Shown here one piece after another: positions 811-23,934 of a DNA stretch of 59,665 nt (position 1 is the stretch's first letter; each line of letters begins with the position of its first letter). The notes under the pieces were generated by a model, which saw only the letters and a list, made by a program, of their open reading frames with translations, did no database searches and had not been told where the DNA came from. The position numbers and the translations under genes were made by a program. The stretch comes from Candidatus Frackibacter sp. WG13 (GTDB lineage Bacteria; Bacillota; Halanaerobiia; Halobacteroidales; Acetohalobiaceae). Location: assembly GCF_900114655.1 (NCBI RefSeq), contig NZ_FOTT01000019.1:1-59665 (forward strand), written 5' to 3'.

Positions 811-1944
811 ATGAGTAAAGAGGGTTATATTCAAAAAGATGTTCAGCATTTAAACTTAAAAGCTCCAATGCGAGAAGTAAAAAATATAGATCCAACAATT
901 GAAGAGATTAATTATGATATTAGTGTTGGGCAGATAGTTATTATAGGAAAGCTTAATAGAGAGCTTTCCTATATAGGTACTGACAATATACTTTACTATC
1001 AAGAGGATAGTATTCCTTTTAAGACTTACATAGATGTGCCAAGAGCAGAACCAGGTATGAAAGCTCGAATTTACCCACATGTTGAACAGGTAAAATTTAA
1101 GCTTTCATCCAATGGATTAGAATTAAACCAAAAAATAGTTTTACAGTTTATAATTAAAATTATTAAAGAGAATTATTTAAATATAAGAAGTATAGAAAAA
1201 GAAAGAAAGGATAGTAGTTCTACAAACAAATTAGTTAAGGTGGCAGAGGTAATTAGTGAAAATAATGAACAAATTATAATAGAACAGACTGAAATTGGTC
1301 TTATGCCACCTATTACTATAGAAAGAGTGTTGATTAAAGCTTTTGTAGTAGAAGATAAAGACCTTCAACAAATAATAGTAATTACTGATTTAGAGTGGCA
1401 AGAAGTTGAGACTAAGAGTTTAGATGTATTTGCCTGGGAGGTAGTTGATGAAACTCTAGTTAATAGGAACTTAGAAATAAAGATTCGGTTAGTTCCTAAG
1501 GCCCAAAGGATAGTTAATGTTACTTCTAATCTTAAAAATATAAAACTTTATAGTGAAGCAAATTTAAATCAATTACTAATTTCAGGAATGCTAATTACAA
1601 GAGTTGATTATTTAGATTTAGATAATAATCACTATAATCTAGCAAAGGAAATTTCTTTTGAATTCATTTTAAATGTTGAAGAATTAGACTTAGAAATGAA
1701 TATTCAAATTCATGCTCAGAATATAGACACTAATTTTGAATTAAATGATAAAGGAGACGAAATAGTTCAAATAGTTGAGATGGAAGTTGTAGTTGTTATA
1801 ACCGAGAAATTAAAAATGACAGTACTTACTGATATAGAAGGTGAAGAGATTAATGAAGTTATCAAGAAGACGGTATTATTAGATTTAGTTGATGATAAAA
1901 GTTCTAAATTAGTGCCTATAGAGGTTGTAACTGGTCTTAGGTAG
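811..1944 (+). CDS. SPOCS (DUF3794) domain protein, two domains
   Basis: 377 aa. Residues about 15-130 form a clear SPOCS domain, with the IGTDN...YYQED...FKTYIDVPRAEPGM pattern shared with the neighbouring proteins. A second, more diverged copy lies at about 230-345. The middle and C-terminal segments are Ile/Val/Glu-rich. SPOCS domains occur in SipL and related spore-coat morphogenesis proteins of Clostridia, acting on the mother-cell side of the forespore. No signal peptide or membrane segment is seen. The start is set by an AAAGGAGG site 8 bases upstream. It is the first of seven SPOCS genes; the specific function of this paralogue is unknown. Confidence 0.85.
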   Translation: MSKEGYIQKDVQHLNLKAPMREVKNIDPTIEEINYDISVGQIVIIGKLNRELSYIGTDNILYYQEDSIPFKTYIDVPRAEPGMKARIYPHVEQVKFKLSSNGLELNQKIVLQFIIKIIKENYLNIRSIEKERKDSSSTNKLVKVAEVISENNEQIIIEQTEIGLMPPITIERVLIKAFVVEDKDLQQIIVITDLEWQEVETKSLDVFAWEVVDETLVNRNLEIKIRLVPKAQRIVNVTSNLKNIKLYSEANLNQLLISGMLITRVDYLDLDNNHYNLAKEISFEFILNVEELDLEMNIQIHAQNIDTNFELNDKGDEIVQIVEMEVVVVITEKLKMTVLTDIEGEEINEVIKKTVLLDLVDDKSSKLVPIEVVTGLR

Positions 1945-2136: not shown

Positions 2137-2163
2137 ACACTTTAGACTCAATTTCATATAATA
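2137..2163 (+). promoter_or_regulatory. Sigma-K-type promoter, 2199 gene
   Basis: CACA context with AC at 2137-2138, 16-base spacer, CATATAATA at 2155-2163, an exact fit to AC-N16-CATANNNTA. The -10 ends 36 bases before the ATG at 2199. Confidence 0.75.
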
Positions 2164-2198: not shown

Positions 2199-2732
2199 AT
2201 GCCTACTAATAATATAAAAACATTACGTGTTATAGGAGAAGAAATAATGCAGATTACAGAAGGTACTACTCTTACATTAACCCACACCCCTGTTTCAATT
2301 GTAGATGTTCAATTAAGCCTATTTGATGTAACTGACCACATATTTAGAGATAAGGTAGTTAAGCAAGGGTTTATTCATGTTAATGTAATTTATAAGGGTG
2401 CTGATGGTATAGTTTATCACGAATCTACCAATGTTCCATTTGAAGAGGAAGTAGAGATTGGTGGTTTAGTTCCTGGTATTAAGTTTAATGGTCAAGTAAG
2501 AGTACCTGTTCAAAATGCTGAGGAGACTACTTTAGATGTAGAAAACTTTATTTTAGAATTAGATTCTGACTTTATTCTTAATAATGGCAATGCAATAACT
2601 CCTACTGTAACAGTAAAAGCATTAGCAAGAATTTTAGTTAAAGTTTCAAGAGTTGAGCAGATGAATGTTTTTGTTAATGGTCGTGATGGTGTTTTTAGAT
2701 TTTCAGGAACAACTCTTGATGGCAACTGTTAA
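2199..2732 (+). CDS. Single-domain SPOCS (DUF3794) protein
   Basis: 177 aa with one SPOCS-like domain covering most of the protein: VVKQGFIHVNVIYKGADGIVYHES, then NVPFEEEVEIGGLVPGIKFNG. It begins with a short leader (LRVIGEEIMQI) that resembles the VIGE linkers between domains of the large paralogues. No membrane segment or LysM is present. It has its own sigma-K-type promoter (2137-2163), an AGGAGGA ribosome site and a strong terminator, so it is a monocistronic unit. Probably a small structural coat component expressed late in the mother cell; the function is inferred from domain and promoter only. Confidence 0.8.
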   Translation: MPTNNIKTLRVIGEEIMQITEGTTLTLTHTPVSIVDVQLSLFDVTDHIFRDKVVKQGFIHVNVIYKGADGIVYHESTNVPFEEEVEIGGLVPGIKFNGQVRVPVQNAEETTLDVENFILELDSDFILNNGNAITPTVTVKALARILVKVSRVEQMNVFVNGRDGVFRFSGTTLDGNC

Positions 2733-2826: not shown

Positions 2827-2853
2827 ACAACCTTTTATAATTTGCATATAATA
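2827..2853 (+). promoter_or_regulatory. Sigma-K-type promoter, 2888 gene
   Basis: AC at 2827-2828 (in CACA), 16-base spacer, CATATAATA at 2845-2853. Exact consensus, 35 bases before the start codon. Confidence 0.75.
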
Positions 2854-2887: not shown

Positions 2888-5200
2888 ATGTCAAGAATAG
2901 AGGGTCAAGACTTCCAGACACAGGGAGTTACTGTCCAACAGATAGAGTTAGAAATACCTGCACAAAAGATCAAGGATATAGATGCTGAAATTAGAGATAT
3001 TACTTTTGAGATTATTAATGATAAGATTATTATTCAAGGTATAATTCATAAGCAGATCTTTTTTGTAGGTACTGATAATGTAGTTCATCATCAAACAGAG
3101 GAGATGCCATTTAGTACATTTATAGATGTACCAGGCGCAGAACCAGGAATGGATGCTCAGATTCATCCTGAAATTGAACATGTTGCTTTTGAGCTCTCAC
3201 CTGATGGCACAGAATTAAATCAAAAAGTAGTTGTGGAAATCTTTGTCAAGATTACAGAGACTGTTCAGGTAAATATTGAAGAAACAACAGAGGGTTCATT
3301 ATATAAATTAGAAACAGTGATAGGTGAAAATAATAAACAGGAGATAGTTGAAAATGAGGTTGAACTAGATATTCCAGCAATTAAAATTGTAGATATTACT
3401 GCTGAGATTAGAGACTTAGAGACTGATGTAATTCAAGATAAGGTGATTATTCAAGGGGTTCTCCATAAGCAAATATTCTTTATTGGAGAAGATAATGTAG
3501 AGTATCATCAAGCAGAAAACGTACCATTTAGCCTCTTTGTAGATATTCCAGGAGCAGAACCAGGAATGAATGTGCAAGTTCATCCAGACATTGAACTTAT
3601 TAAACGTGAATTGATCGATTCAACAACTCTTTTACAGGAAGTGATTATAGATTTCTTTGTTAAGGTTACAGAGACGCAACAACTTAATTTAACTATAGGT
3701 GAAGGTCCATTAATGAAGTTAGACCGTGTTATAGGTGAAGATATAGTTCAAGTGATGAAGGTTAATGATATTACTTTAGAAAGACCAGCAATGAAAATTA
3801 GGGATATAGAAGCCACATTAAGGGATATACAGGCCGTAGTAATTACTGACAAGGTCATCGTACAAGGTACTATTCATAAGCAGATCTTTTATGTAGGAAC
3901 TGATGATGTAGAATATCATCAGGCAGAAGATGTGAACTTTAGTACTTTTGTAGATTTACCAGGAGCAGCCCCAGGTATGGATGTTACTATTAAAGGAGTG
4001 GTAGAACTTGCTAGAGGAACTTTAACTGATCAGACTACTCTTCATCAGAAGGTAGTCGCTGAGTTAGCTGTTAAAGTTACTGAGGAAGAACAGGTCAATA
4101 TAGTAATTGGTAATGGCCCCCTAATCAAGGCCCGACAAGTAGTAAATGAAGGAGTTAGACAGATAATAGTAGAGCAAGTTGCTGTCTTTCCACCAGTACC
4201 ACCGCCTGTAGCAGGGCTTGTAATTGATAGAGCCTTGATTAAGGAAGAAGTAGCAGAAGAGGTTTCAGAACAAATTTTAGTAGATAATGTCATTGACTTA
4301 GAAGATCAAGCTCAAAAGGTAAGATCAATTACTGGGACGATTAGAAATGTAACTGTAGAAATTGTAGATGGTGAAGTCTTAGTAGAAGGAGAAATAGTAA
4401 AAGAAATAGAGTTTGTGGACTCTGATAATGTAGTACGACAGATGACAGAAGTTGTACCTTTTGAAGCTTTAATAGAATTTCCAGATGTACCAGAAGGTGC
4501 CGAACTTAACGCCGATATAGTAATTGAAGATATTAACTTTAATTTAATTAATAATTGCACCGCAATAAGACAGATAGTTGTATTACAAATAACTGTAACA
4601 GCTGGAGAAAGCCGTCAAGTACAAGTAGTGACTAATATCAGTGCTACAGGTGGAGGTACAGTTGAAGTCGAGACTGTAGAAGTTAGAGCTCAAGTAGTAG
4701 TTGGTGAAGATACAATTACTCCGACTTTAGAGAATACGGTTGAATTAGATCCAGCAGCCGATGAAATAATCGATATGACAGGTGAATTACAAGATATCAC
4801 TACAGAAGTAATGGAGGATCAAGTTGTAGTTAATGGTACTGTCTTTAAAGAAGTAGAATATTTAGATGTTGATGATACAATTCAAAATACATTTGAAGAG
4901 ATACCATTTGAATTTACAATAGATATTGAAGGGGCAGCGCCAGGAATGAATGTTCAGGTTCATCCTGAAATTTTAGATATTGCTTTCGAATTAAGTGAAG
5001 ATGGTACAGAATTATTACAAATGATCGATTTAGAGATATTTGTAAAAGTAACTGAGATGGAGATTATAGAAGTAGTTACTGATGCGACTTCAGATTTAAT
5101 TGAAGAGCTTATTACAGAGATTGTTTTCTTAGATGTAGTTGGAGATGGTATTCCTGAGCCTGTACCTGTAGAAGTTGTTGTTGATGTTATAGGCACTTAG
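2888..5200 (+). CDS. Giant SPOCS protein with five tandem domains
   Basis: 770 aa made almost entirely of five tandem SPOCS domains, at about residues 20-135, 160-275, 296-410, 458-580 and 618-735. Domains 1-3 and 5 carry the PGAEPGM-type signature (near residues 81, 221, 357 and 681); domain 4 has the variant PDVPEGAEL. Linkers contain VIGE(N/D) motifs. Domains 1-3 are nearly as similar to domains in the 5326 protein as to each other, pointing to recent duplication. The protein is very acidic and has no signal peptide or membrane segment. SipL, the family member studied in Clostridioides difficile, works in coat assembly with SpoIVA; a repeat scaffold in the coat or exosporium is the likely role. 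Own promoter and terminator. Confidence 0.88.
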   Translation: MSRIEGQDFQTQGVTVQQIELEIPAQKIKDIDAEIRDITFEIINDKIIIQGIIHKQIFFVGTDNVVHHQTEEMPFSTFIDVPGAEPGMDAQIHPEIEHVAFELSPDGTELNQKVVVEIFVKITETVQVNIEETTEGSLYKLETVIGENNKQEIVENEVELDIPAIKIVDITAEIRDLETDVIQDKVIIQGVLHKQIFFIGEDNVEYHQAENVPFSLFVDIPGAEPGMNVQVHPDIELIKRELIDSTTLLQEVIIDFFVKVTETQQLNLTIGEGPLMKLDRVIGEDIVQVMKVNDITLERPAMKIRDIEATLRDIQAVVITDKVIVQGTIHKQIFYVGTDDVEYHQAEDVNFSTFVDLPGAAPGMDVTIKGVVELARGTLTDQTTLHQKVVAELAVKVTEEEQVNIVIGNGPLIKARQVVNEGVRQIIVEQVAVFPPVPPPVAGLVIDRALIKEEVAEEVSEQILVDNVIDLEDQAQKVRSITGTIRNVTVEIVDGEVLVEGEIVKEIEFVDSDNVVRQMTEVVPFEALIEFPDVPEGAELNADIVIEDINFNLINNCTAIRQIVVLQITVTAGESRQVQVVTNISATGGGTVEVETVEVRAQVVVGEDTITPTLENTVELDPAADEIIDMTGELQDITTEVMEDQVVVNGTVFKEVEYLDVDDTIQNTFEEIPFEFTIDIEGAAPGMNVQVHPEILDIAFELSEDGTELLQMIDLEIFVKVTEMEIIEVVTDATSDLIEELITEIVFLDVVGDGIPEPVPVEVVVDVIGT

Positions 5201-5261: not shown

Positions 5262-5288
5262 ACATTTTCAATTTACCACCATATGATA
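5262..5288 (+). promoter_or_regulatory. Sigma-K-type promoter, 5326 gene
   Basis: AC at 5262-5263 (CACA), 16-base spacer, CATATGATA at 5280-5288. Exact consensus, 38 bases before the start codon. Confidence 0.75.
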
Positions 5289-5325: not shown

Positions 5326-6963
5326 ATGTTTGGAATGTTCCTGCTGACTGGAATGGTTTTAGGCTTTATGATGAGTACCTACTATCTTTTAATGAACTAT
5401 GGAGAGCTTTCAATAGAAAGTTTATATACTCTTCTAACTGGAAATCGAAATTTTGAATTTGAAACGAATCATCTTTCAAAGGGTGATATAGATGAGAAGG
5501 AGGTTGAAAGTTGGGAGGAAGATTACCTAGATCTCTTTTCAAATGGAGAACCAGTAAAAGAAAATAAGACAGATTTGATGGAAAAAGGTATAGATGAAAC
5601 TTCGACAAGGGGGGGATTACTCAAAGAGGAGCAAAGTTTAGAAAGACCAGAAAAAAAAAGGGGGGATAATATGACTGATTTATTTCAGACTAATATTGAA
5701 TTACTTAAATTACCAGTCTTAATTGGCGAGAATGATGTTCAAAGGATGTTGGTTAGTGACCTTGAATTAGATTTTACAGCTCAAAAAGTTAGAAACATAG
5801 ATGCATCGATTCGTGATCTTACTTATGAAGTTATTGCTGATAAGGTAATAGTGCAGGGAGTAGTTCATAAACAGGTCTTCTATGTTACAGAAGATAATAT
5901 AGTTCAGCATCAAGCTGAGGATGTGCCTTTTAGTCTCTTTGTTGATATTCCTGGAGTCCAGCCAGGCATGGATGTAGATATTGACCCAATTATTGAAGAT
6001 ATTAAAGTTAAGTTATTAGAAGGTGGGGCAGTGCTACATCAAAAGGTTATTTTAAAAGTAAATGTCTTGGTAGAAGAGGTTCAACAATTATTTGTAGAGA
6101 CTGGTGAAGGTGCACTATCAGTTGTAGACAGAGTCATTGGTGAAAATGAGAACCAGACTATGATTGAAAGTGCTATAGAGTTAGATATACCAGCCATTAA
6201 AATTACTGATATTGTAGCTAAATTACAAGATTTAGAGACTGAAGTTATTAAAAACAAAGTTATTATTCAAGGAATACTTCACAAGCAGATCTTCTTCATT
6301 GGAGAAGATAATGTAGAATATCACCAGGCAGAGGATGTGCCTTTTAGTCATTTTGTAGATTTACCTGGTGCAGAGCCAGGAATGGATGTTCAAGTTCATC
6401 CTAATATTGAACATATTAAACGGGAATTAATAAATGAGGGAACAACTTTATCGCAGGAAGTAGTAGCTAGCTTCTTTGTGAAAGTAACAGAAGAGGTTCA
6501 ATTAAATGTTGCTTCTGGTAATAAATTAGTAAGATTAAGAGAAGTACTTGGAGAGAATACAAAACAGATATTAAATGAGAGCACGCTTGCTTTAGATGTA
6601 CCAGCAATTAAGGTTAAAGATATAGATGTTAGTGTAGTTGATATCGAAACACAAGTAATTACGAATAAGATAATTATTCAAGGTATTATTCATAAACAAA
6701 TCTATTTCATTGGTGAGGATAATGTAGAGTATCATCAGGCAGAAGATGTGTCGTTTAGTACATTTATTGATTTACCGGGAGCTGCACCTAATATGACTGG
6801 AGTTACAGTAAAACCAAAAATAGAATTTGTTAAACCAATTTTAAATCCAACTGGAGAGGAACTAACTCAGAAAGTGGTCATGGAATTATTTGTGAAAGCA
6901 TTCCGTGAACCACCAGCCCATCGACAGATAGCTGTAGTTTCTGTACCACCTTATGGAGTATAA
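5326..6963 (+). CDS. Membrane-anchored three-domain SPOCS protein, with a probable internal start
   Basis: 545 aa. Residues about 2-23 are a hydrophobic segment (FLLTGMVLGFMMSTYYLLM), followed by a charged linker to about residue 115, then three SPOCS domains with signatures near residues 209, 347 and 484. The start at 5326 has a GGGAGG site. A second in-frame ATG at 5671 opens exactly at the first SPOCS region and has its own GGGGGG ribosome site, created by an A9-G6 run (5651-5665); it would give a 430-aa soluble form. A G7 run lies just upstream (about 5609). This is the only SPOCS protein here with a membrane anchor. It could tether the coat layer to the outer forespore membrane. Own sigma-K-type promoter and terminator. 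Confidence 0.82.
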   Translation: MFGMFLLTGMVLGFMMSTYYLLMNYGELSIESLYTLLTGNRNFEFETNHLSKGDIDEKEVESWEEDYLDLFSNGEPVKENKTDLMEKGIDETSTRGGLLKEEQSLERPEKKRGDNMTDLFQTNIELLKLPVLIGENDVQRMLVSDLELDFTAQKVRNIDASIRDLTYEVIADKVIVQGVVHKQVFYVTEDNIVQHQAEDVPFSLFVDIPGVQPGMDVDIDPIIEDIKVKLLEGGAVLHQKVILKVNVLVEEVQQLFVETGEGALSVVDRVIGENENQTMIESAIELDIPAIKITDIVAKLQDLETEVIKNKVIIQGILHKQIFFIGEDNVEYHQAEDVPFSHFVDLPGAEPGMDVQVHPNIEHIKRELINEGTTLSQEVVASFFVKVTEEVQLNVASGNKLVRLREVLGENTKQILNESTLALDVPAIKVKDIDVSVVDIETQVITNKIIIQGIIHKQIYFIGEDNVEYHQAEDVSFSTFIDLPGAAPNMTGVTVKPKIEFVKPILNPTGEELTQKVVMELFVKAFREPPAHRQIAVVSVPPYGV

Positions 6964-6972
6964 AGAATAATG

Positions 6973-7010
6973 AGCAGGTGTCTTAATCAGATGCCTGCTT
7001 TTTATTTTTA
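6973..7010 (+). terminator. Intrinsic terminator after 5326 gene
   Basis: AGCAGGTGTCT (6973-6983) pairs with AGATGCCTGCT (6989-6999), two wobble pairs, followed by TTTTATTTTT. Confidence 0.85.
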
Positions 7011-7228: not shown

Positions 7229-8026
7229 ATGAATAAAGGTTTATATCTCTATTGTATTTTAGACTCCCCAGAGAAAGTCAAAATTGATCTATTAGGAATA
7301 GACAATATACATAAGCCATATGTTATGAGTTATCAAGGAGTGGGAGTTTTAGTTAGTGAGGTTTCATTAATTGACTTTGGCCAGAAGGAGTTAGAAAGGA
7401 AAGTAAGAGATTTAGATTGGTTACATGATAAGGCTAATCGTCATGAAATACTTATTGAACAGGCAATGGAGTTAACAACGGTAATTCCAATTACTTTTGG
7501 AACTGTTTTCGAGAGCAAAATTGAATTAAAAGAGTTGCTTAAAGAATCAATACCTAAGATTAAAGAATTATTTGCAATAGTAAAGGGACATGAAGAATGG
7601 GGCTTAAAATTATATTGTGATTTTTCTCAATTACGAAGGACTATATCTGGCTTACATGATGGTATTAAAGAATTAAAACGATGCTTAGAAAATAGCGAAG
7701 AAGGAATGGAGCAGTTTTTAGAACGAAGGTTAGAAATGGAATTAGATAAAGAAGTAAAAAATAAGGCATTTAGTGTAGCTGATGAAGTATATGAAAAGCT
7801 ATCATCTATAGCAACTAAGTCACATTTAAATGAATTATTAGATATAGAAATTACGGGGATTTCTAAACCAATGGTTCTTAATTCAGTTTATCTTATTAAT
7901 AAGCAATATGTAGCTAATTTTCTATTAAAGTTAAAAGAATTTGAAGATAAGTATTCTGAATTTGGATTTTATTTTTACTATTCTGGTCCTTGGCCGCCTT
8001 ATAACTTTTCTTCGCTTGAATTATAA
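7229..8026 (+). CDS. Gas vesicle protein GvpF/GvpL family
   Basis: 265 aa, typical length for GvpF/GvpL. Family features are visible in order: N-terminal GLYLYCI, the DLDWLHDKANRHE helix near residue 68, VIPITFGTVF near residue 90, and the C-terminal FYYSGPWPPYNFSS (family: GPWPPYxF). GvpF and GvpL are accessory proteins needed to start gas-vesicle assembly and bind the shell protein GvpA. No gvpA, gvpN or other gvp gene is in the window, and its neighbours are SPOCS coat genes. Gas vesicles attached to endospores are described in the halophile Sporohalobacter lortetii, so a spore-linked role is attractive but inferred. Unlike its neighbours, it has no exact sigma-K-type promoter. Ribosome site GGGGAGG. 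Confidence 0.88.
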   Translation: MNKGLYLYCILDSPEKVKIDLLGIDNIHKPYVMSYQGVGVLVSEVSLIDFGQKELERKVRDLDWLHDKANRHEILIEQAMELTTVIPITFGTVFESKIELKELLKESIPKIKELFAIVKGHEEWGLKLYCDFSQLRRTISGLHDGIKELKRCLENSEEGMEQFLERRLEMELDKEVKNKAFSVADEVYEKLSSIATKSHLNELLDIEITGISKPMVLNSVYLINKQYVANFLLKLKEFEDKYSEFGFYFYYSGPWPPYNFSSLEL

Positions 8027-8062: not shown

Positions 8063-8120
8063 ATTGGTTATTTTTATTCTTATTACAGCATAAATTTTAA
8101 TAAGGTTGGAGGTAACAGTT

Positions 8121-9854
8121 ATGAAGCAAGGAGGGGGGAAGTCTAGAGTTACCCACAATAAAAAAGAATATACATTTGAAATTAAAGAAGAGATCAGTTT
8201 ACCAGCTAAAACTCTTAATGTAGAAGATTATGTTGTTAAACTGAAAGAATTTGACTCTGTTTATCATAATGAAGAATTAATTATTCATGGTCAATTAATA
8301 GAGTCTGTCATTTATCAATTAGAGGGTGGAACTAAAGAAGCAAAAGTGGAGAAACCAAATTTTAAATACTTTTTACCACTTTCTGAACAGAGTTCCCAAC
8401 TTGAATATAAATTAAATTTAGATATAGAGCAGATTCAATATAAATTTAAATCTACTGCTTATCAGAAACAAACTTTAGTAAGTAATATAAAGTTAAAATT
8501 AATTATAACGGTCTTTCCTCCTTTAAACAGCTTAGATTCTCTTGCTTCTAATATCTATAAGAACTTAGAGACTAAAAAATTAATTTTGAATAAATTTTTA
8601 GCTGAAAAAGAGACTAACCTTTTAATTAAACAGAAATTAAAATTGGCTGCTAATATTGAAAGAATATTCGAATGTAAGGCTAACTTAAAAAAGGTCAAGG
8701 TTGAAAAAATTGAAGAAGAAGTTATGATTACTGGACAAATTATTTATCAGGTATTAGCTTTAAATAATCAAGGTCAAGTAAAGCATTATGAGATTATAGA
8801 GCCATTTAGAGAAACTACATACTTTAAAAAGACTAATCCTGGTGCCCAATTATTAGCCCAGAATCAAATTAGCGATTTAGAATTTGTTAAGTTAGAGGAT
8901 ACTTTAGAAGTAATGTTAGTAGTTAATGCTGTACTTACGGCTTACCAAGAAGTAGAGATGAGTATTTATACTAATTCTACAGGGCAGCGAGGCGAACAAA
9001 TTAAGGTTAAACAAGAGATTAATAATTTACATGAAGAGTGGATGCTGACTGACGAATTAATCTTGGACATCTCTTATAAAGAATTAATTGAAATGAAAGG
9101 ACAAGTGGTGAATGTTGAGGTTGAATTAATCTCCAATAAGATTATTGTTAGTGGAGAATTAAGTTATGAATTATACTATATAGATTTACATGGTCAAGAG
9201 AAGAATAAAAACTTTAATCTTAATTTCAATAAACTACTAAAGTGTCAGGGAACGAGGGAAGGTTTAGAATTTAAGTATCAATTAAAAGTAAAAGAGCTCC
9301 AACCAGAATTAAAACAGGGAAGATTAATATTAAAAACTTTTCTTAAATTAGTAGGTAACTTAAGAGAGGAAGTATTAACTAAAGTTGTTACTGAGCAGAA
9401 TGGAATTATATCCCAAAGTGTTCTAGATAGTTTCTTAGTAGAAAGAGTATTAAAAGTAGATAAATTAGAACTGTTGCTTCCTTATGAGCTTTATTTAGGG
9501 AGATATGCTAAACAGGTACAGGATATTGATATTAAAATTATTAATCCTGAAGGGAAGTTGTTAACGGGGAGTTTATTGTATAGTTGTCAATTAAAATCTA
9601 TTATTAATTTTATTGATTATAATGATATTGAACAAGAAATTACTAAAATAGAAAATATCAATGAATTACTTCCTACTGAAATAAATATTAAGGAGGCTAA
9701 TTTAGATATAAGCCCCCAAATAAAATATATTGATTATGAGTTAAGTAATGCAGGTGAGAAGTTATTATTAAAAGTTGTATTGAAGTGTCCGTATAAAATC
9801 TTAGAAAGAGTTCGATTGCCTATCTTAACTAAAAAGGTTTCTGTGGCAGATTAA
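8121..9854 (+). CDS. Diverged multi-SPOCS protein (about four domains)
   Basis: 577 aa from ATG 8121, chosen because a TTGGAGGT ribosome site lies about 8 bases upstream; an in-frame TTG at 8106 would overlap that site. Four diverged SPOCS-like units recur: each has a short LP/LS lead, a basic VKxVKVE-type strand, a (I/V)xGQ(L/I)xY turn and a ...NPGAQ-like signature (clearest near residue 240). It is Lys- and Leu-rich, unlike the acidic paralogues. No LysM, signal or membrane segment. Its last 26 bases overlap the 3' end of the opposing gene at 9829. No exact sigma-K-type promoter is seen ahead of it. Assigned by repeat pattern and context; the domain count is approximate. Confidence 0.75.
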   Translation: MKQGGGKSRVTHNKKEYTFEIKEEISLPAKTLNVEDYVVKLKEFDSVYHNEELIIHGQLIESVIYQLEGGTKEAKVEKPNFKYFLPLSEQSSQLEYKLNLDIEQIQYKFKSTAYQKQTLVSNIKLKLIITVFPPLNSLDSLASNIYKNLETKKLILNKFLAEKETNLLIKQKLKLAANIERIFECKANLKKVKVEKIEEEVMITGQIIYQVLALNNQGQVKHYEIIEPFRETTYFKKTNPGAQLLAQNQISDLEFVKLEDTLEVMLVVNAVLTAYQEVEMSIYTNSTGQRGEQIKVKQEINNLHEEWMLTDELILDISYKELIEMKGQVVNVEVELISNKIIVSGELSYELYYIDLHGQEKNKNFNLNFNKLLKCQGTREGLEFKYQLKVKELQPELKQGRLILKTFLKLVGNLREEVLTKVVTEQNGIISQSVLDSFLVERVLKVDKLELLLPYELYLGRYAKQVQDIDIKIINPEGKLLTGSLLYSCQLKSIINFIDYNDIEQEITKIENINELLPTEINIKEANLDISPQIKYIDYELSNAGEKLLLKVVLKCPYKILERVRLPILTKKVSVAD

Positions 9855-10254
9855 AACGCTTAGAAGCCAATTCTTCACCTTCTGCATTGTAGATAACAAA
9901 ATTAAGTTTCTGTTTATAGAAATAATCTTTCTTTATCTTAAAGATATGGGATAAATTTTTATTATAAGTGCCAACCATGGTTACTTTATGACCACGGTAT
10001 TTAATTTCGTTTATACTACCATTAAGCAGAATAATTAATAGTTCATTTGAGGCTAAATTATTAATTTCTTGTGAATGGAAATGATATTTATCTAATAACT
10101 TAGCAATCACTGCTGGATTAGAGGATATATATAATTTGACTTCTTCATTAAAGGGATAACTCCAATCATCAATTATTCTTTCTTCATATAGATTAATAGG
10201 TATATACTGTACGGCAGGATAAGGAAATATCTTATCAGAATATCCAAAAGGCAT
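9829..10254 (-). CDS. Unrecognised 141-aa protein of the spore locus
   Basis: The start ATG at 10254 is chosen because GGAGGT lies 6 bases upstream; a further in-frame TTG at 10269 overlaps that ribosome site. The product (MPFGYSDKIFPYPAVQYIPIN..., ending KRFNLPQKPF) has no membrane segment or known motif that I can recognise. It is aromatic- and Asn-rich with a beta-strand-like pattern. The only gene on this strand in the SPOCS block, it nevertheless has an exact sigma-K-type promoter 43 bases upstream (10297-10323), which ties it to the coat regulon. Its 3' end overlaps the converging SPOCS gene by 26 bases. Function unknown; a coat component is the best guess. Confidence 0.7.
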   Translation of the reverse strand: MPFGYSDKIFPYPAVQYIPINLYEERIIDDWSYPFNEEVKLYISSNPAVIAKLLDKYHFHSQEINNLASNELLIILLNGSINEIKYRGHKVTMVGTYNKNLSHIFKIKKDYFYKQKLNFVIYNAEGEELASKRFNLPQKPF

Positions 10255-10296
10255 ATAAGCCACCTCCAAATTTTTTAAATATAGCTTTTACTATTC

Positions 10297-10323
10297 TATT
10301 TTATGCTTTAATAAAAGAAATGT
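10297..10323 (-). promoter_or_regulatory. Sigma-K-type promoter, 9829-10254 gene
   Basis: On the minus strand: AC (10323-10322, in CACA), 16-base spacer, CATAAAATA (10305-10297). Exact consensus. Confidence 0.7.
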
Positions 10324-10369: not shown

Positions 10370-10396
10370 ACATTTGGATTTCTGGTGCATATAGTA
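10370..10396 (+). promoter_or_regulatory. Sigma-K-type promoter, 10443 gene
   Basis: AC at 10370-10371 (CACA), 16-base spacer, CATATAGTA at 10388-10396. Exact consensus, 47 bases before the start codon. Confidence 0.75.
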
Positions 10397-10442: not shown

Positions 10443-12062
10443 ATGGATGAAAATAGAGCAATTAATTTTAAAGAAGAAACGGTTAGAGTGGAGTACGTAA
10501 TTGGCGAAGATATAATTAGAGAGTCGATCACCGATGATTTAACAGTACCTGAACAGAAGCCAGATATCGAAAGGGTACTAGAAGTTACAGCTGAAGTTAA
10601 TGCAACCGATGCAACGATAGAAGAAGGTGGTGTAGATGTAAGTGGGGAGATAGACATAGGTATACTCTATGTAGCTGATATAGCTGATCCTTATATTGAG
10701 CCTGCACAGCCTGTGCATTTCTTTGAAGGAATAATAAACTTTGATAACTTTGTTGATATTCCTGATGCTGAGCCAGGAATGCATGTAATAACAGATGTGC
10801 AAGTTGTTAGAGTAAACGGTGAAATGATTGATGAAAGAACGGTGCGAGTAACAGTCACTATTCGAAAGTTTGTTAAAGTAGTAGAGTTTAGACAGGTTAC
10901 GGTAATAACAGAAGTTACTGGCTTAGATGATGCTATTATAGAAGAAGAATTACTAAGATTAGAAGATGTGGTAGGAGAGAATACAATCCAAACGATTGTA
11001 GCAGGAACAATAGACGTACCCGAAGTAAAGCCACCAATCGAAAGAATTCTTAGAGCTCAAGCTGATTTAGTTGATGACAGTGTTGAGAGTGAGATTACAG
11101 ATGATGCAGTTATAGTGGATGGAGAGCTTGATGTTGGAGTAGTATATGTTGCAGAGACAGATGCAGGTGATCAACCGGTTCACTTTGTAGAAGGTGCTAT
11201 TGATTTCTCACAAGTAATAGATATACCAGGGGCTATAGACGATGATATGTCAGACTTTGTTGATGTTACTGTTAAGAGAGTGACGGCTACTAGAGTAGAT
11301 GAAGACACTGTTAAAGTAGAGGTAGTCATTGAGATCTTTGTTAAGGTTACTGAACCAATCCAGGTTACAGTTGTTACTGATATTCAGAGTGACAAGGTGA
11401 AGGTTGAACAAGAACTATTAAGAGTAGAAGAAGTAATTGGTGAGGATACTATCTCCGAAACAATTACTAATGAGTTAGAGCTATTACCAGGGGATCCAGA
11501 TATTGAGCAAGTAATTGAAGTGAATGCCAACATATTAGATCCGACGGCTAATGTAGAAGAAGGTGGAGTGCTTGTCGAAGGTCAGATTGAAGGAAATGCT
11601 CTTTATGTAGGAGATGTAGATGATCCTGGTTTTCAACAACCGGTCTTCTTTGTATCGGATGTTTTTGATTTCGAAAATTTCGTTCAAATTACAGGGGCAG
11701 AGCCAGATATGGGAGCCTTTACTAATGTAACAGTGAAAAGAGTGAGATATAATTTATTAGATTCTCGCGCTATTGAATTAATAGTTACTATCACTAAGTT
11801 TGTAAAAGTAGTTCAGTTTGTGCAGACAGATATTGTTACTGACATAGTTGTTGTTTCACCAGTTGTAGATAAAGACTGTCCAGATCGCCCATCATTTGTG
11901 GTCTATGTAGTACAGCCAGGCGATACCTTATTTAAGATTGCACAAAGATTTAATACAACAGTAGATGCTATTGTAGAACAGAACGATATTGAGAATCCAG
12001 ACGTAATTGAAGTAGGTCAGAAATTATGTATTCCAAAAGGAATTATAGGTGCAAAAGGCTAA
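10443..12062 (+). CDS. SipL-like protein: three SPOCS domains plus C-terminal LysM
   Basis: 539 aa. Three SPOCS domains have signatures PDAEPGM near residue 108, PGAIDDDM near 262 and TGAEPDM near 417, separated by EELLRxExVxGE(N/D)T linkers. The C-terminus is a LysM domain at about 488-534 (VVYVVQPGDTLFKIAQRFN..., ending GQKLCIPKG). SPOCS plus C-terminal LysM is the architecture of SipL, whose LysM domain binds the coat ATPase SpoIVA in C. difficile; length is also close to that protein. Acts in the mother cell at the forespore surface. Start set by AAAGGAGGAG. Exact sigma-K-type promoter upstream. A second protein of the same architecture follows at 12201, so which one is the SipL orthologue is open. 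Confidence 0.88.
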   Translation: MDENRAINFKEETVRVEYVIGEDIIRESITDDLTVPEQKPDIERVLEVTAEVNATDATIEEGGVDVSGEIDIGILYVADIADPYIEPAQPVHFFEGIINFDNFVDIPDAEPGMHVITDVQVVRVNGEMIDERTVRVTVTIRKFVKVVEFRQVTVITEVTGLDDAIIEEELLRLEDVVGENTIQTIVAGTIDVPEVKPPIERILRAQADLVDDSVESEITDDAVIVDGELDVGVVYVAETDAGDQPVHFVEGAIDFSQVIDIPGAIDDDMSDFVDVTVKRVTATRVDEDTVKVEVVIEIFVKVTEPIQVTVVTDIQSDKVKVEQELLRVEEVIGEDTISETITNELELLPGDPDIEQVIEVNANILDPTANVEEGGVLVEGQIEGNALYVGDVDDPGFQQPVFFVSDVFDFENFVQITGAEPDMGAFTNVTVKRVRYNLLDSRAIELIVTITKFVKVVQFVQTDIVTDIVVVSPVVDKDCPDRPSFVVYVVQPGDTLFKIAQRFNTTVDAIVEQNDIENPDVIEVGQKLCIPKGIIGAKG

Positions 12063-12144: not shown

Positions 12145-12171
12145 ACACTATCTTAGTTTCTACATAAAATA
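12145..12171 (+). promoter_or_regulatory. Sigma-K-type promoter, 12201 gene
   Basis: AC at 12145-12146 (CACA), 16-base spacer, CATAAAATA at 12163-12171. Exact consensus, 30 bases before the start codon. Confidence 0.75.
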
Positions 12172-12200: not shown

Positions 12201-13709
12201 ATGGATAATATTACTGTCGCCAATTTAATCCTTCGTGAGCAGATAGAAGAAACGGTCGAAAGAAGAATTGTTTTAGCCCAGAATCGACCAGGAGTAGCTA
12301 GAGTATTAGAGACTAATGTTAGATTAGAGAATATAGAGACTGAAGTCGTAGATGGAGGAGTTAGAATTAATGGGATTTTACGAACGACAATCTTATATGT
12401 TCCAGAAGATAATACATCAGCAGTAGAGACGATTGAAAAGAGAATAAGCTTTAGTTTTGTAGTTGACGTTAATGTACCAGGGAGAACAGTGGAGATAGAT
12501 CCTGCTCTCTTTGTTCAAGAGGCAGAAGTTATAATTGTAGACCCACATAATCTTAGATTAACAGTCGTTATTGTAGGTAGGTTAAACTTTATTGAAGCAG
12601 AAAATATAAACTTTATTACTGATGACCAAGCTCAGATAGTTAGGGATGAATTTGAGTTTGATCAAGTAGTTGCTGAAAAGACAGTGACCAGGCAAGTTGA
12701 AAGAGTAGTAGAGTTAGCTAATAATCAAGCCCCAATTGAGCGAGTACTAAATATTCAAAGTACAACTAGGATCATCAATACTCATGTTCGTAGGAATCAA
12801 GTAGAGGTGCAAGCAGAGATTAGAAGTCAGATTTTATATCAATCCCCAGATGGTAGGACGCGAAGCTTGAATATCACTACTCCATTTACCGAGAGAATCA
12901 GAATTGAAGGCGCTAGAAGTGGGATGCAGGCTTTCGTTGATTTAGAGATTATAGACCAAGATTTTAGAATAATAGACCCTAGGACTTTGCGGATTAATTA
13001 TGAAACAGAGATTAATACAGCAGTCTTAACAAGAGACCAAATAGATTTCCCAATAGATATAGATGGTGACCTATTCCCTAGAAGAAGGACTGTCTTAGTT
13101 GAAAGAATTGTAGCCAGAAAGCAGACGCGAGTCTTATTACGAGATACAATAGATGTTCCACCTCCGGGTGCTAGTAGAGTAGTTAGGGTTACAGCTGATG
13201 TAGCTGACCAAGTGATAGAAGCTGATGTAGACGACGGAGGAGTATTTATTTCTGGTGAGGTAGATGTTAATGTATTATATGTAGCTAATCAACCTGATCA
13301 ACCGGTCTTCTTTGTTGGAGATACACTGTTCTTTGATGAATTTATCTCTGTTTCAATTCCTAGAGACGTATTTAGAGTTAGAGCTTATCCAGAAGTTAGA
13401 GTTGTAAGTGCAGAAGGAGAAGTAGTAGATGGGGATACAATTAGGATTAGAGTCTTATTAAGTATTGAAGTCTTGGTTACAGCAATAGTAGAAGTTCCAG
13501 TGGTCATAGGCGTAGGGGAGGATAGAGAAGAATTTGAGCCACCCCGACCAACGCCAGATGAAGGTGAAATTTATATAGTTAAACAAGGAGATACTCTCTT
13601 TATAATTGCGCAAAGGTTTGGAGTAACAATAGCTGAATTAGTGGCAGTTAATGATATTGTTAATCCTGACCAACTAGAAGTCGGCCAGGAGTTAATAATT
13701 CCTGATTAA
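12201..13709 (+). CDS. Second SipL-like protein: SPOCS domains plus LysM
   Basis: 502 aa. Three SPOCS-type domains, at about residues 15-150, 165-300 and 315-440, are more diverged and Arg-rich than in the 10443 protein (for example VERRIVLAQNRPGVARVLE). A Pro/Glu linker (EEFEPPRPTPDEGE) leads to a LysM domain at about 456-502 (YIVKQGDTLFIIAQRFG..., ending GQELIIPD). The LysM and last SPOCS domain match the 10443 paralogue best, so the pair probably arose by duplication. Ribosome site AAGGAGGG. Own sigma-K-type promoter. Expected to act in coat assembly; its partner is unknown. Confidence 0.85.
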   Translation: MDNITVANLILREQIEETVERRIVLAQNRPGVARVLETNVRLENIETEVVDGGVRINGILRTTILYVPEDNTSAVETIEKRISFSFVVDVNVPGRTVEIDPALFVQEAEVIIVDPHNLRLTVVIVGRLNFIEAENINFITDDQAQIVRDEFEFDQVVAEKTVTRQVERVVELANNQAPIERVLNIQSTTRIINTHVRRNQVEVQAEIRSQILYQSPDGRTRSLNITTPFTERIRIEGARSGMQAFVDLEIIDQDFRIIDPRTLRINYETEINTAVLTRDQIDFPIDIDGDLFPRRRTVLVERIVARKQTRVLLRDTIDVPPPGASRVVRVTADVADQVIEADVDDGGVFISGEVDVNVLYVANQPDQPVFFVGDTLFFDEFISVSIPRDVFRVRAYPEVRVVSAEGEVVDGDTIRIRVLLSIEVLVTAIVEVPVVIGVGEDREEFEPPRPTPDEGEIYIVKQGDTLFIIAQRFGVTIAELVAVNDIVNPDQLEVGQELIIPD

Positions 13710-13712
13710 TTA

Positions 13713-15377
13713 TTAAACCTCCATGATTAATGGTAGAATCATGGGGTTTCTTTTTAGTTCGTGGTATAAAAAATCATTAACAACATATTTGATTTTAGAC
13801 TTTAGCTTAGACCATTCAGTAACATTAGCTGCTTCAGTCTTTTCTAAAGCTTTCTTAACTCTCTTTTTAATTTTAGCTATTAGTTCTTGTGAAGTCTGGA
13901 TATGAATAAATCCCCTAGAAATGATGTCAGGACCGGCTACTACTTCGCCGGTCTTGCCATCAATAGTAATCATAATAATAATCATTCCATCATCAGCAAG
14001 AGCTTGACGGTCATTGAGGACTACATTACCTATATCACCAACCCCTAAGCCATCTACAAATACCTTTCCTGCTGGTACCTTGTCGGTTATCTTAGCTTCA
14101 TTAGAATTAATCTCAAGTTTAACACCATTTGGTGTAATAAAGATGTTCTCTTCAGATATTCCTATCTCTTTAGCTACTTCAGCATGATGGTATAAGTGTC
14201 TATATTCACCATGAACCGGAATAAAATAGTTAGGCTTAGTAAGAGCTAACATTAATTTTAATTCTTCTTTAGCTGCGTGTCCAGACACATGAACATCAAA
14301 TTCATTACCATAGATTACTTGAACTCCTTTTTCCAAGAGTTGATTAATGGTATTACTAACTGATAATTCGTTCCCCGGAATAGGAGTAGCAGATATAAAG
14401 ACAGTATCAGTATTATTAACTTGAATTTGATGGTGATCTCCTCTAGCAACTCTAGTTAAAGCTGCCATGGGTTCTCCTTGACTACCGGTCATCAAGATGA
14501 CCAATTCTTCCGGTTCTAACTTATTGATACTTCTAATATCTACTAACATATCAGAAGTTAAATCTACATATCCCAACTCTTGGGCAGTCTGTACAGAATT
14601 AATCATACTCCTACCAGTAACGGCTATCTTTCTATTAGTCATTTTAGCAGCTGTAATGGCCTGTTGGATGCGATGAATATGAGAAGAGAAGGTAGCAACA
14701 ATTACTCTACCTTCTGCTTCCGTAAATCTATCTTCTAAGGTCTTGCCTATTGTACTTTCAGAACCAGTATAACCATTTCTTTCGGCATTAGTACTATCTG
14801 ATAGGAGGGCTAATAGACCTTCTTCTCCTATTTCAGCCAATTTATAAAAATCAGTGGGCTTATTATCAATTGGAGTAAAGTCAATCTTAAAGTCACCAGT
14901 ATAAAGGATCTTACCGATATCGGTTTCAAGTGAGATTGCTACAGCATCAGGAATACTATGGTTAACATTGATAAATTGTGCTTTAAAGCTACCGAGTTCA
15001 ACTTTATCTCTTGGCTTAATTATATTTAGTTCAGTATTCTTAAGCAAATTTCTATCTTTAAGTCTATCTTTAACAAAAGAAATTGTTAGTTGAGTACCAT
15101 AAATAGGTATGTTTATATCTGAAATTAGATAAGGTATGCCACCGATATGGTCTTCATGACCATGGCTTAATAGTAATGCTTTTACTCTTTCTTTATTCTC
15201 TTTTAAATAGGTCATATCAGGAATCACTAGGTCAATTCCTAGCATTTCATCAGTAGGGAACATCACACCTGCGTCTAAAATTAGAATATCTTCTTTATAC
15301 TCAATGACAATTAAGTTATTCCCAACAACTCCTTTACCACCTAGTTGAATAATTCCAATTCTATCTTTTTTTGTCAT
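13713..15377 (-). CDS. rnj: Ribonuclease J
   Basis: 554 aa, the usual length for RNase J. Metallo-beta-lactamase motif SHGHEDHIGG at residues 71-80, then downstream metal ligands in NVNHSIPD and YTGDFK; beta-CASP region follows (LLSDSTNAERNGYTGSE, ATFSSHIHRIQQ, TGSQGEP, HVSGHA, PVHGEYRHL), and a C-terminal domain. RNase J is a 5'-to-3' exo- and endoribonuclease in RNA maturation and decay. Start ATG with an AAGGGAG site. Upstream is a cluster of DnaA boxes (15400-15543), so DnaA could influence its transcription. Its last codons form the terminator hairpin of the opposing gene. Confidence 0.96.
   Translation of the reverse strand: MTKKDRIGIIQLGGKGVVGNNLIVIEYKEDILILDAGVMFPTDEMLGIDLVIPDMTYLKENKERVKALLLSHGHEDHIGGIPYLISDINIPIYGTQLTISFVKDRLKDRNLLKNTELNIIKPRDKVELGSFKAQFINVNHSIPDAVAISLETDIGKILYTGDFKIDFTPIDNKPTDFYKLAEIGEEGLLALLSDSTNAERNGYTGSESTIGKTLEDRFTEAEGRVIVATFSSHIHRIQQAITAAKMTNRKIAVTGRSMINSVQTAQELGYVDLTSDMLVDIRSINKLEPEELVILMTGSQGEPMAALTRVARGDHHQIQVNNTDTVFISATPIPGNELSVSNTINQLLEKGVQVIYGNEFDVHVSGHAAKEELKLMLALTKPNYFIPVHGEYRHLYHHAEVAKEIGISEENIFITPNGVKLEINSNEAKITDKVPAGKVFVDGLGVGDIGNVVLNDRQALADDGMIIIMITIDGKTGEVVAGPDIISRGFIHIQTSQELIAKIKKRVKKALEKTEAANVTEWSKLKSKIKYVVNDFLYHELKRNPMILPLIMEV
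13715..13755 (+). terminator. Terminator of 12201 gene, embedded in the rnj 3' end
   Basis: AAACCTCCATGATT (13715-13728) pairs with AATCATGGGGTTT (13737-13749) with one bulge, followed by CTTTTT. The same bases encode the last residues of the converging RNase J gene. Confidence 0.75.
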
Positions 15378-15553: not shown

Positions 15554-16126
15554 TTATTTGGGTATTTTTAGCTTTTGTCCCGGATAAATTCGTTCAGGGT
15601 CTGAAATTTGATTTAATTCGACTAATTTTTGAACCGAAGTATGATAGTTTTTGGCGATTTTATATAATGAATCGCCATGTTTCACTGTATAAAGAATATA
15701 TTTAGAATTAGAGTCAACATTTGAGTTAGGTTCTGAGTTATTATTATTCTGTGCATTATTAGGATTAAGCTGTTGATTACTGTTGATAATTTTAATTGGA
15801 GTCCCAACGTTAACTTTTTTATAAACCGCTTCTACATCTTTATTGTGCATCCGAACACAGCCGTGAGAAACTGCTTGACCAATTAACCAAGGCTTATTAG
15901 TACCATGAATTCCGTGTTTTCTCCAAGTGAATTGAATCCATCTTGTACCTAATCCTCCACCAGGGTTCATACGTTTAAGTAAGACTTCAAAATCACCAGT
16001 AGGAGTAGGGGTAGAGCTTTTGCCAACAGCTACTGGATAATGACCAATTACTTTTCCGTCTTCATAAAGTTCTAAGTAATGCTGCTTAGTATTAATCAAA
16101 ATCTTGTTATTAATATTATTCACCAC
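15554..16126 (-). CDS. L,D-transpeptidase (YkuD) with C-terminal LysM
   Basis: 190 aa. YkuD domain at about 8-113: [25 protein letters not shown], and the catalytic SHGCVRM motif (Cys nucleophile, conserved His). An Asn/Ser-rich linker leads to a LysM domain at about 145-190 ([17 protein letters not shown]...GQKLKIPK). There is no signal peptide, unlike vegetative L,D-transpeptidases, which fits mother-cell expression and assembly on the spore like B. subtilis YkuD. An exact sigma-K-type promoter lies 45 bases upstream (16171-16197). The start is one of two adjacent GTG codons after an AAGGG site; which one is used is unclear. Likely crosslinks spore peptidoglycan (inference). Confidence 0.9.
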
Positions 16127-16170: not shown

Positions 16171-16197
16171 TATTATATGGACAAAAATAAAAATTGT
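16171..16197 (-). promoter_or_regulatory. Sigma-K-type promoter, L,D-transpeptidase gene
   Basis: On the minus strand: AC (16197-16196, in AACA), 16-base spacer, CATATAATA (16179-16171). Exact consensus. Confidence 0.7.
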
Positions 16198-22783: not shown

Positions 22784-23866
22784 TTATAAGATTTCAGCAA
22801 CTATAGATTTACGTCGTTCATCAATAGCTTCAAAGTCCATAGCTTCTATGTAATATTCTTCTAAATCATCATGTAGGCTTTTAGCATTAGCAATTTTAGT
22901 GATTGCTTTAGAAATTAATTTATTATATCTCTCTTTAGCATTTAAAATTTCATCATTAAATTGGTCAACCTTTTCTTGGTCAACGCAGTCTAGCATATTA
23001 ATGACTTGGTCACCTTCTCTAGTTGGTTCTATCTGATGAGGAGCGGTGCCATCAATTAAAGCGACATCAAGTTTAGGAATTATGATTGTATCTACACTTT
23101 CTGGGTCAAAAGAACAGTGAAAGAACTGTACATCATACCCTCTCTCTAAAGCAGCTTCAGCTACCTTTTGGGTTAAGGTTGCCTTGCCAGTACCCGGTCT
23201 ACCTTTAATAATATAGCGATTCCTTATATTAGAGGTAATACTACTAAGATAATCTACAGGACCCTGTGGAGTTAAGGCACTAGCAAATAGACGGCGAGTT
23301 TGGCCAGCCTCTTCACTGATAGGTTGGGTATTAAAGAGTTTATCAATTACTTCGGTTGTCTTTTGATTAGCTTTTTGAAAGTCCATAGCTTTTATGTAGT
23401 AATCCTCCCATTCATCGTGAACTAACTTAGCCGTTGCTAAGTAGTCATAGGCTCTTTGAAATAGACCCCATATTTGGTCGTTTAAATCTTTAATCTCTTT
23501 TGTATACTCCTTTAAAAGCTCACGGTCCCAATATCGGCCTAAATTGATGATTTCATCAACTGCACCTGGATATTCAGGGTCTACCATATGAGGTGCAGTA
23601 CCATCTAAGAATGCTACTTTAAGTTCTTTAATAACTAGACCGTCTAATGAGTTATTATCAGATGAACACCAGTGATATTCGATATTGAAGCCTTTCTCTA
23701 TCATAGTTTCACCGATCTTTTTCATAAAAGTAGATTTACCAGTACCAGGACCTCCTTTAATAATGAAGATTCGATCAACATTATATGGTAAATATTCATA
23801 AAAAGAATAGAAGCCTTGAGCAGTATTGCCACCAGGAAATAGGTTAATAACTTGACCTTCTTTCAT
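22784..23866 (-). CDS. Duplicated P-loop ATPase, probable sporulation gene
   Basis: 360 aa built from two homologous halves. Half 1 has Walker A GGPGTGKST (38-46), VAFLDGTAPHMVDP near 84, and AKLVHDEWEDYYIKAMDF near 146. Half 2 has GRPGTGKAT (222-230), VALIDGTAPHQIEP and AKSLHDDLEEYYIEAMDF. The second P-loop has Ala-Thr after the Lys where the first has Ser-Thr. It matches an uncharacterised Firmicute ATPase family whose substrate is unknown. An exact sigma-K-type promoter (23908-23934) lies 42 bases upstream, placing it with the coat genes although it sits inside a housekeeping block. No membrane segment. Ribosome site AAGGGGGA. Confidence 0.8.
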   Translation of the reverse strand: MKEGQVINLFPGGNTAQGFYSFYEYLPYNVDRIFIIKGGPGTGKSTFMKKIGETMIEKGFNIEYHWCSSDNNSLDGLVIKELKVAFLDGTAPHMVDPEYPGAVDEIINLGRYWDRELLKEYTKEIKDLNDQIWGLFQRAYDYLATAKLVHDEWEDYYIKAMDFQKANQKTTEVIDKLFNTQPISEEAGQTRRLFASALTPQGPVDYLSSITSNIRNRYIIKGRPGTGKATLTQKVAEAALERGYDVQFFHCSFDPESVDTIIIPKLDVALIDGTAPHQIEPTREGDQVINMLDCVDQEKVDQFNDEILNAKERYNKLISKAITKIANAKSLHDDLEEYYIEAMDFEAIDERRKSIVAEIL

Positions 23867-23907: not shown

Positions 23908-23934
23908 TATAATATGCAAATAGATTTAAAGTGT
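23908..23934 (-). promoter_or_regulatory. Sigma-K-type promoter, P-loop ATPase gene
   Basis: On the minus strand: AC (23934-23933, CACA context), 16-base spacer, CATATTATA (23916-23908). Exact consensus. Confidence 0.75.

Follow-up and report, generated by a model that had tools for sequence, protein, structure and literature searches.

Endospore-attached gas vesicles have been known for decades in halophilic anaerobes. In Sporohalobacter lortetii, the vesicles are made solely with the spores and remain attached to them, and in Orenia sivashensis they lie between the exosporium and the coat and are also found in vegetative cells (PMC4187190). No description of the genes behind endospore-attached gas vesicles, or of their control, was found in the open-access papers searched. 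The assembly proteins have been described in other organisms: in haloarchaea, GvpL binds all the other accessory Gvp proteins and has been proposed to be their platform, GvpF being a partner of GvpA (PMC7688916), and a chaperone role has been suggested for GvpF in the Bacillus system (PMC11445434). On the side of the spore coat, the SipL protein of C. difficile, made of three SPOCS domains and a LysM domain, is a SpoIVA-binding protein that directs the coat to its place (PMC6436350).

The DNA analysed here, called the window, is a stretch of 59,665 nucleotides from Candidatus Frackibacter sp. WG13 in which a gene of the gas-vesicle GvpF/L family was found inside a cluster of spore-coat genes. 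It was compared with the other genomes of its order (13 in all), five belonging to the family of the window (f1: the window genome G000 and G001, G002, G003 and G004, representing four genera) and eight to the sister family (f2). When 43 upstream regions of the compared loci were aligned, a common box emerged, AC N15-17 CATANNNTA, which we take to be the sigma-K consensus; it occurs in 21 of these regions for 0.6 expected from dinucleotide shuffles. The features of the window locus are the following.

811-1944, plus strand: SPOCS-domain protein of 377 aa (PF12673, E 3.5e-14)
2137-2163, plus strand: sigma-K-type box AC N16 CATANNNTA, ahead of the 2199 gene
2199-2732, plus strand: SPOCS-domain protein of 177 aa (PF12673, E 3.1e-7)
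2827-2853, plus strand: sigma-K-type box ahead of the 2888 gene
2888-5200, plus strand: SPOCS-domain protein of 770 aa with five repeats (PF12673, E 1.7e-73)
5262-5288, plus strand: sigma-K-type box ahead of the 5326 gene
5326-6963, plus strand: SPOCS3, SPOCS-domain protein of 545 aa with three repeats (PF12673, E 8.2e-47)
6972-7000, plus strand: intrinsic-terminator-like hairpin in the gap between SPOCS3 and gvpF (folding z -5.3)
7229-8026, plus strand: solo GvpF/L-family gene (GvpL-type), 265 aa (PF06386), single copy in the genome
8023-8060, plus strand: intrinsic-terminator-like hairpin after gvpF (folding z -7.8)
8121-9854, plus strand: SPOCS-domain protein of about 577 aa (PF12673, E 8.9e-13); start called at 8106 by the ORF caller, likely ATG at 8121
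9829-10269, minus strand: small spore-associated protein (about 140 aa) without a match in Pfam
10297-10323, minus strand: sigma-K-type box for the 10269 gene
10370-10396, plus strand: sigma-K-type box ahead of the 10443 SPOCS-LysM gene
10443-12062, plus strand: SipL-like protein with three SPOCS domains and LysM (PF12673, E 1.6e-51; LysM, E 2.6e-18)
12145-12171, plus strand: sigma-K-type box ahead of the second SPOCS-LysM gene
12201-13709, plus strand: second SipL-like protein, SPOCS and LysM (PF12673, E 1.6e-33; LysM, E 4.4e-16)
13713-15377, minus strand: RNase J (the homologue in L047 is an RNase J)
15554-16126, minus strand: L,D-transpeptidase with LysM (the homologue in L047 is YkuD plus LysM), with its own sigma-K-type box near 16197

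The initial annotation had described a clear GvpF/L protein between SPOCS genes, and both parts of this description were borne out. The open reading frame starts with ATG behind the ribosome-binding site GGGGAGG, and its product matches the Pfam family PF06386 (GvpL_GvpF) over 244 of the 245 profile positions with an E value of 2.3e-55 and 188.7 bits, for a cut-off of 23.6. Around it, seven genes of the window match PF12673 (SipL/SPOCS), LysM being also present in the last two. The gene is thus embedded among those of SipL/SpoVID-type SPOCS-LysM proteins, and the genome holds SpoIVA in addition to the two SipL-like genes close by. In contrast to these proteins, the GvpF/L product carries neither SPOCS (PF12673) nor LysM, PF06386 being the only family returned by the Pfam scan, and it should be considered as their neighbour, not as a member of their family.

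Of nine coat-cluster genes tested in the window, six have the sigma-K-type box ahead of them. No strict box was found ahead of gvpF in the window, G003 or G004, the best looser match of the window (6 of 8 positions) having been discounted, and no sigma-70-type promoter was detected before the window gvpF on its own strand. Terminator-like hairpins flank the gene on each side (two observed, 0.3 expected in shuffles), which gives it the appearance of a separate transcription unit. The spore-coat setting proposed at first is right, with the difference that in the window the gene looks like a unit of its own and has no consensus sigma-K box.

The absence of any other gvp gene within 60 kb, pointed out in the initial annotation, extends to the whole genome for the proteins searched. 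In the window assembly (2.77 Mb, 99.99% complete), neither GvpA, GvpK, GvpG nor a second GvpF/L could be detected, the GvpF/L gene being present in one copy. The results for GvpA, GvpK and GvpG are informative because the same searches detect these proteins in G002 and in G009, a genome of the sister family. The window genome can thus not build gas vesicles, in contrast to S. lortetii and O. sivashensis, whose vesicle-bearing spores belong to the same halophilic-anaerobe group. Gas-vesicle function in this genome was ruled out on the same grounds, GvpA, GvpK and GvpG being missing. Flotation, with the protein nucleating or anchoring vesicles on the spores of the window organism, has in its favour the spores of these two species (PMC4187190) and the gvp cluster that G009 carries within its spore-coat locus. 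Vesicles need a shell protein, however, and GvpA is missing from the window genome and from three of the four other f1 genomes, G002 being the exception; with GvpK and GvpG also lacking in the window genome, flotation is extremely improbable there, the gvpA search that was to decide on it having come back empty.

The sites conserved in the GvpF/L family, P87, E123, G253, P254, W255 and the C-terminal GPWPPYNF motif, are all present in the window protein. The solo proteins of the five f1 genomes, which align without any internal gap, share a tyrosine at position 250, immediately N-terminal to this motif, where the other GvpF/L proteins have Glu or Asp (43 of 49) and never Tyr (0 of 49); the clade has also lost Tyr162 and shows further specific substitutions at Pro109 and Phe132. 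For the G001-G002 pair, on which alone we relied since the NG86 method is near saturation for the distant pairs, dN/dS was 0.155 (NG86) or 0.096 (YN00). These ratios indicate that the solo gene is under purifying selection.

In a tree of 44 sequences, the five solo proteins form one clade (100/100) placed within a set of 21 that holds the GvpL-type sequences, and its grouping with the GvpF-type was rejected (p 4e-6). According to its sequence, the window protein thus groups with the GvpL-type and not with the GvpF-type: the GvpF/L identity given at first is right, and its type is specified here. The structure was predicted with AF2 from a 54-sequence alignment (pLDDT 95.2, pTM 0.88), which replaced a run with five sequences (pLDDT 55). 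Foldseek searches of the PDB with this model returned as significant matches the GvpF crystal structures only, 4qsg (E 4e-16) and 6l5d (E 1.5e-15), with TM scores of 0.67-0.80, and the same two entries were obtained by a sequence search of the PDB. Because the alignment contained GvpF/L relatives, what the model shows is above all that the sequence can adopt this fold and, the fold being unchanged, the model by itself points to no new role. The window protein is thus similar to Halobacterium GvpL and to the crystallised GvpF proteins in its full-length domain, its predicted fold and its C-terminal motif, and differs from them by the missing gvp partners, the coat-locus setting and the substitutions of its clade.

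The adjacency of gvpF and SPOCS genes, whose comparison across relatives had been proposed, was found in the whole family: each of the five f1 genomes has one solo orthologue at the same position of the coat locus, and SpoIVA was found in all five. A. arabaticum, which is possibly G001, is listed as a Spo0A-positive non-spore-former missing several genes (PMC3533761), and sporulation of every f1 strain is for this reason not certain. In f1, the order of the locus is L,D-transpeptidase-LysM, RNase J, SPOCS-LysM, a gene of 137-146 aa and gvpF, the first two being conserved markers of the locus end in all the compared genomes of the order. An extra SPOCS gene (444-586 aa) lies between the 137-146 aa gene and gvpF in the window, G003 and G004, the only ones of the five f1 genomes to have a SPOCS gene of the 577-aa type next to gvpF. 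On the other flank, SPOCS3 is found in four of the five genomes, G002 lacking it.

In the class (59 genomes), GvpF/L was found in nine genomes: all five members of f1, one of the eight members of f2 (G009), where the three copies all belong to a gvp cluster, and G411, G439 and G437. Among these 59 genomes, a solo GvpF/L in the coat locus was seen in f1 only, the matches of G439 and G437 being on short contigs and the three of G411 lying in a gvp cluster distant from the coat genes. In the outgroups G187 (family f5) and G439 (f6), the small gene directly abuts SPOCS3 with no gvpF in between, so that an insertion on the line leading to f1 is the simplest reading, and the solo gene was probably gained at the coat locus. 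Alternatively, a single ancestral gain in the order may have been followed by losses in f2. In the phylum sample, 19 of 398 genomes gave a GvpF/L match; one of them, G056, has a single GvpF/L gene (L048:9476-10258) located outside any coat locus, by transporter and chemotaxis-like genes.

Two relatives place the gene behind a sigma-K-type promoter. In G001, gvpF starts 47 bp after the stop codon of SPOCS3, has no box of its own and is preceded by the sigma-K-type box of SPOCS3, an arrangement compatible with co-transcription; in the window, G003 and G004, about 200 bp and a terminator-like hairpin separate the two genes, those of G003 and G004 being akin to the hairpin at 6972-7000. In G002, the stretch preceding gvpF can be aligned both to the SPOCS3 promoter of G001, with a score of 63 (25 for the best of 200 shuffles), and to the final codons of SPOCS3, with a score of 49 (36 for the best shuffle). 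These alignments indicate that an internal deletion (L043, around 9760-9962) removed SPOCS3 and left its promoter directly ahead of gvpF, with a sigma-K-type box 178 bp upstream of the gene. The solo gene has thus outlasted its neighbour and retained the promoter of the latter. As G002 has a complete gvp cluster elsewhere in its genome, the solo gene has also been retained beside the three GvpF/L copies of that cluster.

These observations bear on the possibility that a vegetative or stress-related GvpF/L-like protein stands among the coat genes by chance. The separate transcription unit of the window, with no consensus sigma-K box, and the solo GvpF found in G056 outside any coat locus would agree with such a coincidence. 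It is nevertheless quite unlikely, since five genomes belonging to four genera have the gene at one and the same place of the coat locus, and in view of the close spacing (47 bp) behind a sigma-K-type coat gene in G001 and of the deletion that put the gene directly under that promoter in G002.

The link that had been drawn to the gas-vacuolate spores of relatives proved to be right at the level of the locus. In the sister family, the sole gvpA-bearing genome, G009, has a whole gvp cluster in the corresponding slot of its coat locus (L047:6901-12623). This locus begins as in f1, with L,D-transpeptidase-LysM, RNase J, SPOCS-LysM and the small gene, after which stands a gene of 129 aa; then come gvpA, a gvpL-type gene, a gvpJ-type gene of the GvpA family, gvpK, gvpF/L, gvpG and a second gvpF/L. 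A small ORF, an AAA ATPase at the position expected for gvpN, and gvpO (identified by Pfam) complete the cluster, beyond which lie CryBP1-family and other coat-like genes. The gvpA gene is divergent from the assembly operon and is preceded by a sigma-K-type box. Such a box also precedes gvpA in G002, the other gvpA-bearing genome of the order; the chances per region (0.016 in G009 and 0.04 in G002) should not be multiplied, because it was partly in this same alignment that the boxes had come to notice, and because the two gvpA genes are related. G008, of the same genus as G009, has the same flanks and a 129-aa gene 88% identical but no gvp, and no gvp was found at the corresponding slot of G010 and G007, which makes of the cluster a presence/absence feature of this slot. 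The 129-aa family, for which Pfam gave no match, was observed by the coat genes of f2 at L047:6901-7290, L158:7207-7596, L159:8727-9116 and L162:7599-8015.

Spores such as those of S. lortetii and O. sivashensis would predict this coat-locus arrangement of gvp genes. A gvp system tied to sporulation would be expected to have this form, and G009 thus provides a concrete candidate for the genetic basis of gas vesicles attached to spores. The locus points to the site of the genes of the spore-attached "float" and offers a concrete and testable object, a complete gvp cluster within a spore-coat cluster, in which a sigma-K-type box precedes the shell gene.

In another reading, an ancestor of the order would have had a whole gvp cluster at the coat locus, as G009 has; most lineages would have lost it, and f1 would have kept only the GvpL-type gene, either decaying or with a leftover role. 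Such a relic would be in agreement with the complete cluster still present in the equivalent slot of G009, where the GvpL-type gene lies closest to the coat genes and shares their strand, and with the tree that unites the solo proteins and the GvpL-type proteins of G009 and G002, which was not rejected (p 0.194), although this test is weak either way as the pair was chosen after the locus had been seen. The best tree, however, keeps the solo clade apart from these GvpL proteins; the directly adjacent coat genes of the outgroups require a prior insertion; and none of the five copies is disrupted, all of them being under purifying selection, which makes pure decay unlikely. We consider a relic of this kind unlikely, and one that gained a role merges with the recruitment proposed below. 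The best tree does not show a direct descent of the solo gene from a cluster GvpL of the G009 type, and the test did not reject it (p 0.19).

The explanation that we favour, and hold to be fairly probable, is that a GvpL-type assembly scaffold has been retained or recruited, without the vesicle, as a spore-envelope protein serving as an assembly factor. Recruitment as a coat protein, put forward earlier beside flotation, gains support from the conservation of the gene in the coat locus across the family, from purifying selection and from the sigma-K coat promoter lying upstream in relatives, although a position in a coat cluster does not by itself prove a function. Since haloarchaeal GvpL binds the accessory Gvp proteins, a GvpL-type protein devoid of GvpA is plausible as a general scaffold. 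In the window organism, the protein would be a late product of the mother cell during sporulation. It would no longer assemble Gvp proteins around GvpA but would bind the self-assembling SPOCS/LysM coat proteins encoded by the same locus and, as a scaffold or chaperone, help them to order or to dock on the forespore surface. A protein of vesicle assembly would thus apparently have entered the spore envelope, the vesicle having been lost or never present and, if true, this recruitment would give the GvpF/L fold a new role.

More speculatively, the SPOCS locus of the order may be the home of sporulation-controlled gvp genes. The G009 cluster, with its gvpA and sigma-K-type promoter, would build vesicles on the developing spore, and the solo GvpL-type protein of f1 would be a coupler between vesicle and coat, kept as a coat assembly factor after the loss of the vesicle. 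We regard this scenario as conceivable and rather doubtful.

Other genes of these loci seem to be related to the spore. Among the genomes of the class, the family of the small protein encoded at 9829-10269, which carries the motif PFGYSDKIFPYPAVQYIPI, is present in 24 of the 27 that have SpoIVA and in one of the 32 that lack it; as this family tracks sporulation, it is likely to be an unnamed coat protein. CryBP1-family genes were observed near the coat locus at L042:1209-2300 and L047:15354-16364, both confirmed by PF07029, and at L158:4411-6744, recognised by sequence similarity, and could encode spore-surface proteins. Further along the window, a gene of 360 aa (22784-23866, minus strand) is preceded at about 70 bp (near 23934) by a sigma-K-type box and may also belong to the late sporulation genes; relatives have a similar P-loop ATPase-like ORF near the same locus.
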